A DNA stretch of 64,000 nt from Carboxylicivirga marina. GTDB lineage: Bacteria; Bacteroidota; Bacteroidia; Bacteroidales; Marinilabiliaceae. A program made the translations under genes and the position numbers. Shown piece by piece: positions 5,989-16,577 of this stretch. The stretch spans positions 1 to 64,000 of the forward strand of contig NZ_JAENRR010000023.1 of NCBI RefSeq assembly GCF_016612505.1, read 5' to 3'. Within the stretch, counting starts at the first letter, position 1; every line of letters begins with the position of its first letter. The notes under the pieces are model-generated. The model made no database searches. It was given only the letters and a program-made list of their open reading frames with translations, and had not been told where the DNA came from.

Positions 5989-6804
5989 ATGGGAAAGACA
6001 ATAAGTATTATAGGTTGCGGTTGGTTTGGCTTGCCTTTGGCCAAATTCATGATTGATAAAGGCTGGACAGTTAAAGGTTCCACTACCTCAGAAAATAAAT
6101 TTGATCACCTAAAGCAAATTGGTATTTTGCCGTGCTTGCTTGATGTTGCACGCCCCGAAACATTTAAGAATGATTTTTTTAAGTCCGATTATATCCTGAT
6201 TAATATTCCGCCAACTAAAGTGATGCGTCAAGTGTCGGTTTATTGGCCATTAATCAAGGTAATTGAGAAAGAGGGGGCGCAAAAGGTCATTTTTATTAGC
6301 TCAACATCTGTTTATCCGTCTAATAATTCTATAGTTTATGAGGAAGATACAGAGCGTATGGGAGATGGGGTCAATCAACTACTTGATATTGAAAGGGCGT
6401 TTCAGAAAGCCGCTTTTGAATGTGCGATTATTCGATTCGCAGGTTTGGTTGGAGGTGAGCGGTATCCGGGTCGCTTTTTCACGCCGGAAAGAGTTGTTGA
6501 TGGTGGCAGTCAGGTTATTAACCTTATACATCTCGATGATTGTATTCAGATAGTTGAACAGTTATTGAAACAAGATGCATTCAATAATGTATTTAATGGT
6601 GTGGCAGATACACATCCTCAGAAGAAAGAGTTTTACACCCTTGCGGCTCAATTGAATAATAAGCCTGCTCCAAAGTTTAGTCAGGCTAATGTGCCTTATA
6701 AGATTATTTCGAATGAAAAAGTAAAGCGCCATTTGAATATAATATTTAAACATCCCGATTTAATTGAAATGCTCCACAATAATGAACTGTGGAATCGTAC
6801 ATGA
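5989..6804 (+). CDS. SDR-family NAD(P)-dependent epimerase/dehydratase (YeeZ-like)
   Basis: Extended short-chain dehydrogenase with an N-terminal Rossmann motif (IGCGWFGLPLA, residues about 7-17), INIPP near 70, and ISSTSVYP near 100-107, where the catalytic Ser and Tyr would sit. The ATG at 5989 is chosen because it places the Rossmann strand at the N-terminus; a TTG at 5938 would overlap the upstream gene. About 271 aa, normal for the YeeZ-type group, whose substrate is unknown. It is probably cotranscribed with the secreted protein upstream. Confidence 0.85.
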   Translation: MGKTISIIGCGWFGLPLAKFMIDKGWTVKGSTTSENKFDHLKQIGILPCLLDVARPETFKNDFFKSDYILINIPPTKVMRQVSVYWPLIKVIEKEGAQKVIFISSTSVYPSNNSIVYEEDTERMGDGVNQLLDIERAFQKAAFECAIIRFAGLVGGERYPGRFFTPERVVDGGSQVINLIHLDDCIQIVEQLLKQDAFNNVFNGVADTHPQKKEFYTLAAQLNNKPAPKFSQANVPYKIISNEKVKRHLNIIFKHPDLIEMLHNNELWNRT

Positions 6805-8541: not shown

Positions 8542-8627
8542 CAATATAAAATAAAACAACGCAACATTTTCATGTGTTAAGTATCGCACGATGGGATGGT
8601 TCATCACCCTGCGATACAATTTCTTTA

Positions 8628-9818
8628 TTAATAGTTGTAAGAACTTTGTCCGTGCTCGTGAATATCTAATCCTTCACGTTCTTCTTGCTCCGAAACTCGT
8701 AGGCCAATAGTAGCTTTTAATACTTTGAATAGGACTAATCCAAGTCCAAATGCCCAGGCTCCAATTGAAACAACTCCTATTGCTTGTACGCCTAATAGTG
8801 AAAAACCACCACCATAAAATACGCCACCATCTGTTGCAAAGAAGCCTACTAACAAGGTACCTACTGCTCCACATACGCCGTGAACAGAAATGGCACCAAC
8901 AGGGTCATCTATTCTTAATTTCTGATCGATGAATTCAATTGAGAATACTACCACTAATCCGGCAATTGCACCTATGGCAACAGCTCCGGCAGGAGAAACA
9001 ATATCACAACCTGCAGTTATTCCTACTAATCCGGCCAATGCACCGTTTAAGGTCATTGATAGGTCGGGTTTACCATAGCGGAACCAAGTAACAAACATGG
9101 TTACAATGGCACCTGCTGCTGCTGCCAGGTTAGTTGTAATAACTATTAAAGCGACTGCATAAGCATTATCACCGCTGATAGCTAATTGTGACCCAGGGTT
9201 GAAACCAAACCAACCTAGCCAAAGGATAAATACACCCAGAGCGCCTAGCACCATATTGTGACCAGGGATGGCATTTGTTTTGCCATTGTATTTTCCAATA
9301 CGCGGACCGATTGTCCAGGCACCAGCTAAGGCAGTCCATCCTCCTACAGAGTGTACCACCGTAGAACCTGCAAAATCGTGGAAGCCAAGCTCGCTTAACC
9401 AGCCACCACCCCAAACCCAGTGGCCTGATATTGGATAGATAACTACTGTGATAACTAAGGAGAATAATAAATAGGTACTGAACTTGGTACGTTCAGCCAT
9501 GGCTCCTGAAACGATTGTAGCTGCTGTGGCAGCAAATACCGTTTGGAAGAATAGATTGTGTAAATCAGTTCCGTCGTTGTAAAAGAAATCGAATGCACCA
9601 AAGAAAGCACCATCGCCTCCATACATGATGCTGTATCCAATAATCCAGAACATTAATGAACCAATTGAAAAGTCCATAAAGTTCTTCATAATGATGTTAC
9701 CAACGTTTTTTGCTCGTGTAAAACCGGCCTCAACCATGGCGAATCCGGCCTGCATAAAAAAGACTAAAATTCCGGCCAGTAAGACCCATAATATATCTAA
9801 AGCACTATTTGCGTCCAT
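8628..9818 (-). CDS. amtB: Ammonium transporter AmtB
   Basis: Ammonium channel with eleven transmembrane helices. The pore histidine pair is His156 (GSTVVHSVGG) and His313 (AISVHGVCG). The NNP-type gate region and GFNPGS are intact, and the C-terminal tail contains REGLDIHEHG, the segment bound by PII proteins. At 396 aa it has the usual length, and there is no signal peptide. It lies 36 bp downstream of glnK on the same strand, the classical glnK-amtB pair, so ammonium flux is likely blocked by GlnK when nitrogen is plentiful. Confidence 0.96.
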   Translation of the reverse strand: MDANSALDILWVLLAGILVFFMQAGFAMVEAGFTRAKNVGNIIMKNFMDFSIGSLMFWIIGYSIMYGGDGAFFGAFDFFYNDGTDLHNLFFQTVFAATAATIVSGAMAERTKFSTYLLFSLVITVVIYPISGHWVWGGGWLSELGFHDFAGSTVVHSVGGWTALAGAWTIGPRIGKYNGKTNAIPGHNMVLGALGVFILWLGWFGFNPGSQLAISGDNAYAVALIVITTNLAAAAGAIVTMFVTWFRYGKPDLSMTLNGALAGLVGITAGCDIVSPAGAVAIGAIAGLVVVFSIEFIDQKLRIDDPVGAISVHGVCGAVGTLLVGFFATDGGVFYGGGFSLLGVQAIGVVSIGAWAFGLGLVLFKVLKATIGLRVSEQEEREGLDIHEHGQSSYNY

Positions 9819-9854: not shown

Positions 9855-10199
9855 TTATTTCTCATAAAGGGTTTCTGGTCCTGACTCGCCAGTGCGAATG
9901 CGATAGGTGTCGGCTACATCAGATACAAAGATTCGCCCATCACCTATTTCACCTGTTTTAGCCGCGTTAATAATGGCGTCTACAGTTTTGTTCATATTCT
10001 CGTCGCGCACGATAATGGAAAGAATACGTCTTTCGATGATGCTTGTATCGTATAAGGTGCCCCTGTAAAGGTGGCCTTCGCGTGCCACTCCTGTTCCTCT
10101 AACATCCCAGTATGAGAAAAATGTGATGTCTTGTTCTTCCAGTGCTTTTTTTACAGCTTCAAATCGAGATAATCGAATAATGGCTTCAATTTTCTTCAT
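9855..10199 (-). CDS. glnK: PII nitrogen regulatory protein GlnK
   Basis: PII signalling protein of 114 aa, which binds ATP/ADP and 2-oxoglutarate and plugs AmtB. The N-terminus MKKIEAIIRLSRFEAVKKAL and the segment GEIGDGRIFVSDV are diagnostic. The T-loop reads EGHLYRGTLYDTS, with Tyr50 at the position of the uridylylated Tyr51 of enterobacteria, but its tip differs from the proteobacterial form. No uridylyltransferase gene is in the window, so modification is uncertain. It forms an operon with amtB and follows the porin gene after a 219-bp gap with a large hairpin. Confidence 0.95.
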   Translation of the reverse strand: MKKIEAIIRLSRFEAVKKALEEQDITFFSYWDVRGTGVAREGHLYRGTLYDTSIIERRILSIIVRDENMNKTVDAIINAAKTGEIGDGRIFVSDVADTYRIRTGESGPETLYEK

Positions 10200-10418: not shown

Positions 10419-11447
10419 TTAGAACGAATAGATGGCAGCCATTAGAAATTGTGTGGCTGATTTGTTTGGTGCGTCATCACCATCAACAAACCATTCACTG
10501 CTGGCTGAATCCATTCTTAGTTCTGTTGAAAAGGTTAATGGTCCTGCGTAATAGTTGAGGGTGAATGTATTTGAGAATACATTCTCACTATCCATATCAA
10601 TCGTTTTGTCTTCTTTTACGATAAAGTATTCACCTCTGTATCCTAGAGAAAGTTTTTCGCTAAATGTTACTTGTGGGTATAATGCAAATCCGATGTAGCC
10701 TCCAAGGTCAGATTCTGAATAAGTATAATCAGCAGCATTTAAACCCAGGTAAAATCCGTCAGTAATTTGAAAACCCGTTGTAAGGTCAATGATAGTTCCA
10801 GATGAAGAACCTGTTAAGAAATTTACATAAGCATCCCAACCTTCTACCGGATTAATATATATCTGTGTTCCAAAGTCGGATATTCCATTTACATCTTGAT
10901 AAACATTCCAATCATTGAATGCCCCCACCATTACTCCAAATTTTTCAGAAATGGACCAATCTAATTTAAGACCAGCATTTTGGAATGGTCCAGCACTAAA
11001 TAAATAAGATGTACTGTAGTTGAAGTTACCAACGGGTGAAATTACTTCATACCCAACAAAGGTACCCATGTAACCAGCGGTTAATGAAAGGGCATCACTT
11101 AAGGCGTAAGAAATATAAAGGTTTTGAATGTTCACGTTTTGGCCGTCGCCTAACCCATCGCTATTAAGGTCAAATGTTGGTATAGATTTAAAGCTTCTTG
11201 GTCCAAAAGAAAACTCACCAACAAAACTGGCTTTCCCAATTGATTGTGATAAAGCAATGTCTAGCATACCTAGTGATACAGAATTGTGGTTGTCTGCAAA
11301 ACTGGTTGGGATGTTAGATGTGCCTGAAAAGTCGTACTTAAAGTATGTATCTACAGATCCTGAAATTTCCAGTCCACTCTTTTCGTCTTGTGCATTTGTG
11401 GTGAATAATGCAAGGCCAAGTCCTAAAGTCAAAAAAATCTTTTTCAT
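10419..11447 (-). CDS. Outer membrane beta-barrel porin (bbp2/OmpL-like)
   Basis: A 342-aa protein with a signal peptide (MKKIFLTLGLGLALFTTNAQ) and a succession of amphipathic beta strands ending in an aromatic C-terminal residue (AAIYSF), the sorting signal of outer membrane barrels. The order ISGSVDTYFKYDF, then a barrel with alternating short turns, fits the putative porin-2 family. Its position upstream of glnK-amtB suggests that it brings ammonium or small nitrogen compounds across the outer membrane (inference). A -7 box TATGTTTG on the minus strand is at 11562-11569, and the palindrome at 11587-11606 lies at roughly -40 from the predicted start. Confidence 0.85.
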   Translation of the reverse strand: MKKIFLTLGLGLALFTTNAQDEKSGLEISGSVDTYFKYDFSGTSNIPTSFADNHNSVSLGMLDIALSQSIGKASFVGEFSFGPRSFKSIPTFDLNSDGLGDGQNVNIQNLYISYALSDALSLTAGYMGTFVGYEVISPVGNFNYSTSYLFSAGPFQNAGLKLDWSISEKFGVMVGAFNDWNVYQDVNGISDFGTQIYINPVEGWDAYVNFLTGSSSGTIIDLTTGFQITDGFYLGLNAADYTYSESDLGGYIGFALYPQVTFSEKLSLGYRGEYFIVKEDKTIDMDSENVFSNTFTLNYYAGPLTFSTELRMDSASSEWFVDGDDAPNKSATQFLMAAIYSF

Positions 11448-11561
11448 CGAATAACGGTTAATAGTTAATATTTGCTTTTACTATCTCGTTGATTGGGGGT
11501 GTCGGCCTAAAAAAATGCTTTTTCTCAAATGGTACCCTGTAGTTTTGATAGGTTGACGATA

Positions 11562-11606
11562 CAAACATATAAAAAATATTTCATCGACCCCTCAAAAAAT
11601 AGGGGT
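11562..11606 (-). promoter_or_regulatory. Porin-glnK-amtB promoter with activator-type site
   Basis: Minus-strand TATGTTTG (11562-11569) is a perfect -7 box. The nearest TTTG (11593-11596) is 23 bp away, slightly too far for an unaided promoter. The palindrome ACCCCT-N8-AGGGGT (11587-11606) covers this -33 region, centred near -40, where class II activators bind. Confidence 0.6.
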
Positions 11607-11711
11607 AAATATTAAAATAAAGTTAAAAATAACAAAATACCCCTGTTTTGAAAGGGGTATTGGGGTGAAAAATAGCAAATCGTAAGTTGCCACCCCTATT
11701 TTTAATGGGGT
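11587..11711. promoter_or_regulatory. Three ACCCCT-N8-AGGGGT palindromes
   Basis: Site 1 is 11587-11606, site 2 is 11639-11658 (arms extended to 9 bp, AATACCCCT/AGGGGTATT, 11636-11661), and site 3 is 11692-11711 with one arm mismatch. Each has exactly 8 bp between the arms. Centres are 52 and 53 bp apart, five helical turns. They lie in the divergent region between the porin-glnK-amtB unit and gltB, so a nitrogen-responsive DNA-binding protein is likely. I know no named regulator with this motif. Confidence 0.75.
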
Positions 11712-11898: not shown

Positions 11899-11929
11899 TT
11901 GGTATATATAAATGAAAATTCTATTTTTG
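11899..11929 (+). promoter_or_regulatory. gltB promoter
   Basis: TTG (11899-11901), 20-bp spacer, TATTTTTG (11922-11929), a perfect TAnnTTTG box. This predicts a start near 11935 and a leader of about 125 nt. In the leader, GGATTA (about 11935) can pair with TAATCC (about 11984), but I see no recognised riboswitch. The stretch 11712-11898 shows nothing else. Confidence 0.7.
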
Positions 11930-12059: not shown

Positions 12060-15000
12060 ATGACAAAACGATTTCCAAAACCTCAGGGGTTGTATGACCC
12101 TGCAAATGAACGTGATAATTGTGGGATTGGATTTGTTGCCAATATAAAAGGTACACAAACCAATGAAATAGTGATGAGAGGCTTGGAGGTGCTTACAAAT
12201 ATGACACACCGTGGTGCCGAGAGCTCTGATAACAAATCGGGAGATGGTGCCGGTATATTAATGCAGGTGCCTCATGAGTATTTTTCAACGTTTGGGTTTA
12301 ATTTGCCTTCTGCTGGGAAGTATGGAACCGGATTGGTTTTTCTGCCACAGGATGAAAATGAAGCCGCTGAATGTCAGCGCACGCTAGATGAATTTTTTGT
12401 ATCAGAGGGGCTTGAGTTGATTGGCTACCGCGATGTACCGGTTGATAGTGATGTTATTGGTGAAATAGCCAAAGGTACCGAGCCAAAAATCTATCAGGTT
12501 TTTGTAAAAGGTAATTATGAGCAGGATGCTTTAGAGCGCCGATTGTATTTGGCCCGTAAGCAAGCTGAAAATGCCATTCGTGAATCGGATCTGAAGGAAA
12601 AAGAAGCATTCTATTTGCCAAGTTTATCGTCAAAGATATTTATATATAAAGGTATGTTGACGCCCGAGCAATTGGGCTTATACTTTTTAGATCTAAAAGA
12701 TCGACGTGTTAAAAGTGCGATTTCATTAGTGCACTCTCGTTTCAGTACTAATACATTCCCTACCTGGGATTTGGCACAGCCATTCCGTATTATGGCGCAC
12801 AATGGTGAAATTAACACCATTAAAGGTAACCGCCTTTGGATGCAGGCACGCGAGAGCTTGTTAGAGTCAGATCTATTTGGTGATGACCTGAAGAAGTTAT
12901 TTCCGGTAATTACGCCCAATATGAGTGATTCAGCCTCATTAGATAATGTGCTTGAGTTCTTGTTTTTAACGGGTCGTTCACTTCCGCATGCACTAAGTAT
13001 GTTAGTGCCTGAATCTTGGAACAGTAAAAATCCAATACCAAAAAGCTTAAAGGCCTATTACGAATACCATTCGACCATTATGGAACCGTGGGATGGACCT
13101 GCATCAATCGTATTCTCCGATGGTCGTTATGTCGGCGGTACATTAGATAGAAATGGCTTACGTCCATCGCGTTATGTGATAACCAAAGACGATATGATCG
13201 TTATGGGATCAGAAGTTGGTTGTCAGGTTTTTCCTGCTGAAGAGATTAAGGAGAAAGGACGTTTGAAGCCTGGTAAACTCTTGTTGGTTGATACACAGCT
13301 AGGTGTTATTATTCCTGATGAAGAGATAAAATCGCAATTATCGAAGCGAAGACCTTATGCCAATTGGTTAAAGGAAAATCGTATTCGCATGCGTGAGATT
13401 GAAGTGCAAAAACGTGTGCCATCACAACTAGGAGATAAATATGATGCTTACTTAAAGGCTTTTGGATATAACCGTGAAGACTTTGAGCATCTGATTGCAC
13501 CAATGGCCAAAACAGGTGGTGAACCTATAAGCTCAATGGGTAATGATACACCAATAGCTGTTTTGTCAGACAAGCCTCAGCGCTTTTTCTCATATTTCCG
13601 ACAGTTATTTGCGCAGGTTACTAACCCACCAATTGATCCGATTCGTGAAGGTTTAGTAATGGCTCTGACTAATTATATTGGTTCTGTATCAAAGAATTTT
13701 TTAAAGGAGGAGCCTTCACAGTGTCGCTCCATTAAATTCGAAAGCCCATTGATGACCAATACTGATTTGGGTAAGATAAAAGATTACATGCGCGAAGAAT
13801 TTACGCATGTGAAGATTCCGATGACTTTTCCGGTTGAAAAAGGTGGAAAAGGATTAGAAGAAGCTTTAGAGCGTATATGTAAAGCTGCTGAGAAAGCGGT
13901 GGATGATGGTATGAATTACATCATCTTAAGCGACCGCGATATTGACGAAAAGCATACGGCTATTCCTTCATTGTTAGCTGTTTCGGCAACTCATCACCAC
14001 CTGATAAAAGCTAAAAAGCGTATGCAAGTTGGCTTAGTGGTTGAGACAGGTGAAGCTCGTGAGGTAATGCATTTTGCTCTGTTACTTGGTTTCGGAGCCA
14101 GCGTAATAAACCCATATGTGTGTTTTGCTACCATCAACGAAATGGTGAAGGAAGGCAAAATTGATATGGATTATGCGTCTGCGCGTGAGAATTATATCAA
14201 AGCTGTAGATAAAGGTTTGCTGAAGGTGTTGTCAAAAATGGGTATCAGTACGCTACGTTCATATCATGGTGCACAAATATTTGAAGCCATTGGTGTGTCG
14301 GAAGATGTGATTAATAAATACTTTATTGGTACGCCAACTAAAATCGGAGGAGTTGGATTGGATGAGATTGCTAAGGAAAGTATTCTTGATCATCAGAAAG
14401 CTTTTCAACCAAAATTTCAAACGAATCCATTTGATACCAAGGGGAGCTATGCGTATCGTAAATATGGCGAGAAGCATGGCTGGAATCCGGAAACCATTGG
14501 TTTGTTACAGTGGGCAACCACAGAAGGTGACTATAATAAGTATAAAGAATACAGCCGTCAGGTTGATGCTGATAATCAAACGCCTTTGTTTATCCGCGGC
14601 CTGATGAAGCTAAAAGATAGAAAGCCTATCGATATTAGTGAGGTGGAGCCTGCATCAGAAATTATGAAGCGATTTGTGACAGGTGCCATGTCTTATGGTT
14701 CAATATCAAAGGAAGCTCATGAAGCCATGGCATTGGCCATGAATGAAGTGGGCGGTAGAAGTAATACTGGTGAAGGTGGCGAGGATGCTGAACGTTTTAA
14801 AAGTCCGGCGCGTAGTTCAATTAAGCAAATTGCATCAGGGCGATTTGGTGTAACCAATAATTACCTGACCAATGCTGATGAGTTACAGATTAAAATAGCA
14901 CAGGGCGCTAAGCCAGGTGAAGGTGGTCAGTTGCCAGGTTTTAAGGTTGATAAGATAATTGCCCGCCTGCGAAACTCAACGCCGGGTATTACCTTAATAT

Positions 15001-16577
15001 CACCTCCTCCACATCATGATATTTATTCAATTGAGGATTTAGCACAGCTAATTTACGACCTGAAAAGTACGAATCCATCAGCACGAGTGAGTGTTAAGCT
15101 GGTTTCTGAAAATGGGGTTGGTACAGTAGCAGCAGGTGTTGCCAAGGCTCACGCTGATTTAATTGTCATTAGTGGTACCGAAGGAGGAACAGGGGCCAGC
15201 CCAACCAGTTCTATTAAACACGCTGGTTTACCGGTGGAAATTGGTTTGTCAGAAACACAGCAAACGCTTGTAATGAATAACTTGCGTGGTCGCGTAAAGC
15301 TTCAGACCGATGGGCAGCTAAAAACAGGTTTGGATGTGATTAAGATGGCCTTACTTGGTGCTGAAGAATATGGTTTTGCCACTTCTGCATTGGTAACTCT
15401 TGGTTGTGTGATGATGCGTAAGTGTCACTTGAATACATGCCCGGCAGGTATTGCCACGCAGGATGAAGCCTTAAGAAAACGATTTATAGGTAAATATAAA
15501 TACACGGTTAACTTCTTCAACTTTATTGCACAGGAAGTACGTGAGTATTTGGCACAATTAGGCTACAAGTCTTTGGATGATGTTATTGGAAGGACCGACT
15601 TGCTTGAGCAGAATACTTCAGTTAATAACTGGAAATCAAATGGTGTTGATTTAAGTCGTCTATTGTACTTCCCGGAGGAAGGTAAAACCTACCCTATAAA
15701 AAATACAACTGAGCAGGATCATAAACTGGATCAAGTACTTGATCGCCGATTAATAAAGCAGGCACAAGCGGCCCTTATTAACCAGCAGAAAGTTTGGATG
15801 GCCAGTGATATAATCAATACAGACCGTACTGTTGGGGCTATGCTTTCAGGTGAGGTATCTAAAAAATATGGTGAAGAAGGTTTACCAAAGAATACCATTA
15901 ACTGTACGTTCCATGGTTCGGCCGGTCAAAGCTTTGGCGCTTTCCTTACAAAAGGTGTGAGTTTCCGATTAGAGGGTGATGCCAATGATTATTTAGGTAA
16001 AGGCTTGTCGGGAGGTAAAGTGATTGTGGTGCCGCCGCAAGGAACAACCTTTAAGCCAGAAGAGAATATCATTATTGGTAATACTGTGTTATATGGAGCT
16101 ACTACTGGTTACCTGTATGTGAGAGGTGTAGCTGGTGAGCGATTTGCTGTTCGAAACTCGGGAGCACATGCCGTTGTTGAAGGTGTAGGCGACCACTGTT
16201 GTGAATACATGACCGGCGGTCGTGTGGTGGTGCTTGGTCCTACCGGGCGAAACTTTGCTGCGGGTATGAGTGGCGGTATTGCTTACGTACTCGATGATGA
16301 AGGAACGCTTGATTACTATTGTAATAAAGGACTGGTAGATTTATCACCGGTAGAAGATGCAGCTGATGTGCAGGAGCTTCAGTTTATGCTGAACAAGCAT
16401 TTGTTACATACCAACAGTAGTAAGGCGCAAGAGATATTGGTGAACTGGACAACTTACTTGCCTAAGTTTGTGAAAGTCATTCCTTTTGAATATAAAAAGG
16501 TGTTGCAGGAACAAAAGATTAAAGAGTTGGAACGTAAGCTTCTCGAAACAGAAGATGCACCGCATTTGAGAGAGTAA
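12060..16577 (+). CDS. gltB: Glutamate synthase large subunit
   Basis: Transfers the amide of glutamine to 2-oxoglutarate (GOGAT). A 20-residue propeptide precedes Cys21 (RDNCGIGF), the N-terminal nucleophile of the class II amidotransferase domain (about 21-430). A central domain follows (about 470-770). The FMN-binding synthase domain (about 810-1190) contains SGTEGGTGASP and the 3Fe-4S cysteines CVMMRKCHLNTCPAG, and the GXGXG beta-helix comes last (about 1250-1450). At 1505 aa it is full length. Paired with gltD downstream, and divergent from the ammonium uptake genes across the palindrome cluster. Confidence 0.97.
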   Translation: MTKRFPKPQGLYDPANERDNCGIGFVANIKGTQTNEIVMRGLEVLTNMTHRGAESSDNKSGDGAGILMQVPHEYFSTFGFNLPSAGKYGTGLVFLPQDENEAAECQRTLDEFFVSEGLELIGYRDVPVDSDVIGEIAKGTEPKIYQVFVKGNYEQDALERRLYLARKQAENAIRESDLKEKEAFYLPSLSSKIFIYKGMLTPEQLGLYFLDLKDRRVKSAISLVHSRFSTNTFPTWDLAQPFRIMAHNGEINTIKGNRLWMQARESLLESDLFGDDLKKLFPVITPNMSDSASLDNVLEFLFLTGRSLPHALSMLVPESWNSKNPIPKSLKAYYEYHSTIMEPWDGPASIVFSDGRYVGGTLDRNGLRPSRYVITKDDMIVMGSEVGCQVFPAEEIKEKGRLKPGKLLLVDTQLGVIIPDEEIKSQLSKRRPYANWLKENRIRMREIEVQKRVPSQLGDKYDAYLKAFGYNREDFEHLIAPMAKTGGEPISSMGNDTPIAVLSDKPQRFFSYFRQLFAQVTNPPIDPIREGLVMALTNYIGSVSKNFLKEEPSQCRSIKFESPLMTNTDLGKIKDYMREEFTHVKIPMTFPVEKGGKGLEEALERICKAAEKAVDDGMNYIILSDRDIDEKHTAIPSLLAVSATHHHLIKAKKRMQVGLVVETGEAREVMHFALLLGFGASVINPYVCFATINEMVKEGKIDMDYASARENYIKAVDKGLLKVLSKMGISTLRSYHGAQIFEAIGVSEDVINKYFIGTPTKIGGVGLDEIAKESILDHQKAFQPKFQTNPFDTKGSYAYRKYGEKHGWNPETIGLLQWATTEGDYNKYKEYSRQVDADNQTPLFIRGLMKLKDRKPIDISEVEPASEIMKRFVTGAMSYGSISKEAHEAMALAMNEVGGRSNTGEGGEDAERFKSPARSSIKQIASGRFGVTNNYLTNADELQIKIAQGAKPGEGGQLPGFKVDKIIARLRNSTPGITLISPPPHHDIYSIEDLAQLIYDLKSTNPSARVSVKLVSENGVGTVAAGVAKAHADLIVISGTEGGTGASPTSSIKHAGLPVEIGLSETQQTLVMNNLRGRVKLQTDGQLKTGLDVIKMALLGAEEYGFATSALVTLGCVMMRKCHLNTCPAGIATQDEALRKRFIGKYKYTVNFFNFIAQEVREYLAQLGYKSLDDVIGRTDLLEQNTSVNNWKSNGVDLSRLLYFPEEGKTYPIKNTTEQDHKLDQVLDRRLIKQAQAALINQQKVWMASDIINTDRTVGAMLSGEVSKKYGEEGLPKNTINCTFHGSAGQSFGAFLTKGVSFRLEGDANDYLGKGLSGGKVIVVPPQGTTFKPEENIIIGNTVLYGATTGYLYVRGVAGERFAVRNSGAHAVVEGVGDHCCEYMTGGRVVVLGPTGRNFAAGMSGGIAYVLDDEGTLDYYCNKGLVDLSPVEDAADVQELQFMLNKHLLHTNSSKAQEILVNWTTYLPKFVKVIPFEYKKVLQEQKIKELERKLLETEDAPHLRE

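Follow-up and report, generated by a model that had tools for sequence, protein, structure and literature searches.

The window analysed here, a 64,000-nucleotide stretch of the Carboxylicivirga marina genome, contains two divergently oriented groups of genes. On the minus strand, a gene for an outer-membrane porin (BBP2; PF07642, E=1.6e-61; positions 10419-11447) is followed by glnK, encoding a P-II protein (9855-10199; PF00543, E=7.7e-22), and amtB, encoding an ammonium transporter (8628-9818; PF00909, E=2.9e-132). The divergent neighbour on the plus strand is gltB (12060-16577), the gene for the large subunit of GOGAT, with a GATase_2 domain (PF00310) in the N-terminal part of its product; gltD lies on the same strand as gltB. 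These Pfam matches confirm the preliminary description of this DNA, which had named the neighbours of the array discussed below as ammonium uptake genes and gltB.

The intergenic region contains three palindromes centred at 11596.5, 11648.5 and 11701.5, that is, at steps of 52 and 53 bp. Seen from the porin gene, the distal one is palindrome 1 (ACCCCTATTTTTAATGGGGT, plus strand, 11692-11711), followed by palindrome 2 (ACCCCTGTTTTGAAAGGGGT, plus strand, 11639-11658) and the proximal palindrome 3 (ACCCCTCAAAAAATAGGGGT, plus strand, 11587-11606). The preliminary description had read all three as ACCCCT-N8-AGGGGT; the palindromes, their positions and their spacing stand, but only two have exactly this form, and the remaining one reads ACCCCT-N8-TGGGGT. 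Given this T for A beside one arm, the core common to the array is ACCCC-N10-GGGGT, which palindrome 1 matches exactly. About 0.9 copies of this 20-mer would be expected from base composition in the 5.65-Mb genome, and four are found, namely the three of the array and one G/C run. Random scatter across the genome, named at the outset as grounds for dismissing the motif, is thus not what was found, with three of the four copies lying inside a 125-bp stretch. A search for phased pairs (52 bp apart, with at most 3 mismatches in 16 positions) likewise identified this locus alone in the C. marina genome, against zero control matches.

The porin-glnK-amtB promoter

The -7 element of Bacteroidetes sigma-A, TAnnTTTG, is present on the minus strand at 11562-11569 (TATGTTTG) and is kept in relatives. 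In a transcriptome study of Flavobacterium, this element occupies positions -12 to -5 (PMC9723704). By analogy, transcription of porin-glnK-amtB is predicted to start near position 11557 on the minus strand, some 110 nt ahead of the start codon (ATG) of the porin gene. Counted from there, palindrome 3 is centred at about -39.5, and its GGGG arm coincides with the -33 position. The earlier placement of the leftmost site near -40 therefore agrees with the predicted start; there is no -33 element. Palindrome 3 ends exactly 17 bp before TAnnTTTG; with its centre near -39.5 and an arm at -33, it is placed as class-II activator sites are. When the palindrome, a spacer of 16-19 bp and TAnnTTTG were combined into a composite pattern, which was searched blind to genes, the single match in the C. 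marina genome was this promoter.

The array is larger than the three palindromes first reported and spans the promoter, with two further sites on the promoter side. Palindromes 1 and 2 are centred at about -144.5 and -91.5 relative to the predicted start. Beyond palindrome 3, a degenerate palindrome (ACCTATCAAAACTACAGGGT, minus strand, 11534-11553) with 7 matches out of 10 is centred at about +13.5, 53 bp from palindrome 3, and a half-site with CCCCC (ACACCCCCAATCAACGAGAT, minus strand, 11483-11502) follows 51 bp further on, at about +64.5.

On the other side of the intergenic region, a candidate -7 element of gltB (TATTTTTG, plus strand, 11922-11929) resembles an element that lies in L012 at approximately the same position ahead of gltB. 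No site of the array is in register with this candidate, and no sites were found at gltB in most relatives in which an amt operon is not adjacent. These two sequence observations make gltB an improbable direct target, and the array is assigned to the amt operon; the role for gltB that its position had suggested is not borne out.

The gltB leader displays a separate feature in other Bacteroidales (L022, L023 and L026), where, some 40-130 bp upstream of the gene, the sequence GAGAATGG...CCATTCTC...GAATGGC-TTTTT is conserved. It could form mutually exclusive hairpins followed by a T-run and thus looks like a transcription attenuator; it has no match in Rfam.

Conservation and targets in relatives

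Upstream of gltB in relatives within Carboxylicivirga, the same arms recur at the same 52/53-bp steps with different spacers. In other genera, where the porin-glnK-amt operon is located elsewhere, the sites move with the operon (L121, L125, L126, L230 and L231); the same is probably true of L123, where the contig stops before glnK. The motif is accordingly kept upstream of the same operon in these related species, even where the operon has parted from gltB; a lack of such conservation was the other observation that would have counted against it. Judged by their sequences, the three palindromes are real conserved sites, and we infer that a protein, one and the same, binds to all of them.

When 13 amt promoters were aligned by their -7 elements, peaks appeared at -91.5, -39.5, +13.5 and about +65, with the core ACCCC-N10-GGGGT conserved at every register; at the register of palindrome 2, the mean is 8.1 matches out of 10. 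Of the five registers, four (-92, -39.5, +13.5 and about +65) are found again in 12 related promoters of amt operons, whose spacers have diverged. The +13.5 register is conserved in relatives, with complete palindromes in L014 and L121, and at the position of the fifth site, CCCCC-AATCAA is kept in Carboxylicivirga, with fuller palindromes in L125 and L231. The arrangement of a site, 17 bp and TAnnTTTG is also found in L121, L125, L126, L027, L117 and L228, and four loci (L019, L021, L034 and L187) retain half-sites only, at the spacing of the array (GGGG-N34/35-CCCC). Many amt operons of Bacteroidales lack the motif, which is therefore lineage-limited or diverged.

The phased-pair search across 393 genomes of the order produced four matching genomes: that of the window, G280 from another family, in which the pair lies just upstream of porin-glnK-amt, and G120 and G416, where the matches are GC-rich hairpin repeats. 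Six genomes (G031, G051, G052, G120, G317 and G416) contain families of such repeats, whose arms are CCCC/GGGG; they probably represent mobile elements and imitate the phased pattern.

The composite pattern extended the list of target genes. Among 71 genomes of the family, it matched 23 sites, compared with 10 control sites, and 16 of the 23 are located upstream of nitrogen genes: eight porin-glnK-amt operons, four glnN genes (one of these sites, in G067, faces the opposite way), two tatD-ansA pairs, one nifA-like gene and one second amtB. Sites are also present at a second nifA-like gene, that of G040, which Pfam reads as GAF-sigma54-Fis. Across the 393 genomes of the order, there were 15 sites versus 6 in the control. 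Outside the family, six of nine matches, counted without three copies of a repeat in G317, precede glnN, the gene for glutamine synthetase III, in families f23, f53, f56 and f112. In these assignments, glutamine synthetase III, asparaginase, TatD and some of the NifA-like and AmtB proteins were named from the translated sequence, and the others by Pfam or by similarity to proteins of the window. Within the family, many glnN promoters contain a pair of imperfect sites separated by 52-54 bp. The glnN promoters of G323, G122, G205, G092 and G378 have one recognisable site, always at the position that replaces -33. The suggestion that other nitrogen genes might carry the motif is thus supported in relatives, for glnN, nifA, ansA and additional amt genes. 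At glnN of C. marina itself, no recognisable site was found, so the regulon there may be small. In Prevotella ruminicola, another member of Bacteroidales, the response of glnK, amtB, glnN and gltBD to ammonium amounts to 27-69 fold (PMC5552732).

Several occurrences involve other kinds of genes. In two Carboxylicivirga genomes, promoters of secreted proteins with DUF3244 or sorting domains display the same array and the 17-bp spacing (L228, 8800-8943; L117, about 5990-6180). A palindrome also lies upstream of SusC-like TonB receptors in two genera (L269 in G053 and L114 in G003), in the composite register in L269; these receptors are possibly a nitrogen-linked uptake system. Finally, phased sites occur near a possible short transcript with a terminator in L119 (about 6180-6285), L229 (about 8620-8730) and L209 (about 1680-1780). 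In L119 and L229, this lies downstream of recJ, and a shared CCCTTAAATCAG stretch has the opposite orientation in L209; Rfam gave no match for the possible transcript. The sites at these three loci fall outside the -39.5 register, which makes their link to the array uncertain.

Proposed regulation and alternative readings

We consider it likely that a nitrogen-responsive transcription factor uses the array as its operator and controls porin-glnK-amtB by class-II activation, with a regulon shared with relatives. The constant spacing from the -7 element, along with the missing -33 element, points to a class-II activator, with a protein on the palindrome making up through its contacts for what is missing from the DNA. 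A dimer would bind ACCCC-N10-GGGGT, and the factor on the copy at about -39.5, where the GGGG arm replaces the -33 element, would recruit sigma-A RNA polymerase to a promoter with only a -7 element. The other copies lie on the same face of the helix at steps of five turns (about 52.5 bp) on both sides of the predicted start; extra sites on one face suggest cooperative binding, which this phasing would probably allow between dimers. The +13.5 site could tune or shut off expression, and in relatives the same factor would control glnN, nifA, ansA and further amt genes. With less assurance, we lean towards a more general reading, namely that an undescribed nitrogen regulator of Bacteroidales at large, distinct from NtrC, NtcA and GlnR, activates amt, glnN, nifA and ansA from a palindrome in place of -33, and that at amt operons it builds a regularly phased array of protein across the start.

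As to which protein this might be, no transcription factor gene is conserved beside glnN or amt. The closest structural analogue of the array site is the lux box, a dyad of 20 bp that is located near -42 and substitutes for the -35 element. The dyad length, the separation of the half-sites, the AT-rich middle and the promoter position are all shared with LuxR-type class-II sites, whereas the half-sites are ACCCC rather than ACCTG, the targets are nitrogen genes and the copies are phased. Binding of the palindrome by a dimer of the LuxR/NarL (GerE) type is accordingly a tentative possibility, one that would fit the activator reading rather than exclude it. GerE proteins were detected in all 17 site-bearing genomes tested, but with 6-23 per genome they are too common everywhere to decide the matter, and orthologue grouping gave no one-to-one orthologue common to all genomes. 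A PAS protein gene with a composite site in G048 was also considered; with no regulator adjacent, this match is probably due to chance.

The conserved site just downstream of the start in amt promoters, together with phased operators on both sides of the promoter, would also suit a repressor that binds under nitrogen excess, covers -39.5 and +13.5 and loops the DNA between phased sites. We regard this as rather unlikely. The five glnN promoters with a single recognisable site have it invariably in place of -33, and with the palindrome itself occupying -33, the promoter looks incomplete without a helper.

A still less favoured reading assigns the sites to an NtcA-like Crp/Fnr regulator of altered specificity. 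NtcA recognizes GTAN8TAC at about -41.5 (PMC3898017), and this precedent makes Crp/Fnr the obvious guess. In cyanobacterial NtcA class-II promoters, as at the promoter studied here (relative to the predicted start), a palindrome near -40 replaces the upstream promoter element; the activator-dependent logic is similar, and the targets likewise include amt, glnN and control of nitrogen fixation. The array differs in its core, which is ACCCC-N10-GGGGT and not GTA-N8-TAC, in its sigma element TAnnTTTG and in the repetition of sites every 52-53 bp across the start. One Crp/Fnr gene, in G018, does have a site, located 21 bp ahead of the gene start, but close relatives of this gene occur in only three other genomes of the 71, so it is not a general regulator. 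Furthermore, HTH_Crp_2 is absent above the Pfam cut-off from G065, G066 and G067, and in G059 and G064 the only traces of the Crp HTH are short or broken fragments. Since both G065 and G067 carry good sites at glnN but lack an intact Crp HTH, a Crp/Fnr regulator is very improbable and largely refuted, unless these assemblies miss the gene.

Although some relatives do contain GC-rich hairpin repeats whose arms are CCCC/GGGG, we reject as highly improbable the notion that the palindromes are mobile hairpin repeats or RNA hairpins such as terminators instead of operators, because the motif in the C. marina genome is confined to the porin-glnK-amtB promoter, it keeps a constant place with respect to the -7 element in different genera and families, and the three palindromes precede the predicted start and would not be transcribed with the operon.

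Relation to known nitrogen control and implications

The regulator proposed here, an activator bound next to the -7 element, also departs from other described systems. Several palindromic sites upstream of glnK-amtB are reminiscent of NtrC/sigma-54 control in Proteobacteria, but the array site abuts a -7 element of the sigma-A type and the motif lacks NtrC half-sites; reading the site-bearing promoters by eye, we saw no -24/-12 promoter (GG-N10-GC) and found TAnnTTTG instead. The GlnR/TnrA box, TGTNA-N7-TNACA, is not matched, the array motif differing from it in both sequence and length. NrdR boxes and other helically phased operator pairs share with the array identical palindromes separated by an integral number of helical turns, an arrangement consistent with cooperative reading. 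The array nevertheless has five turns compared with approximately three, up to five sites and nitrogen genes as neighbours, and contains no NrdR-like box. A literature search found no paper that describes the motif or names a regulator of nitrogen assimilation in Bacteroidota, and nitrogen is absent from the main text of the iModulon paper on B. thetaiotaomicron.

An array that crosses the transcription start at five-turn intervals is an unusual promoter layout. The exact bait sequence, the exact promoter geometry and the list of targets (amt, glnN, nifA and ansA) provide a direct route to the missing regulator.
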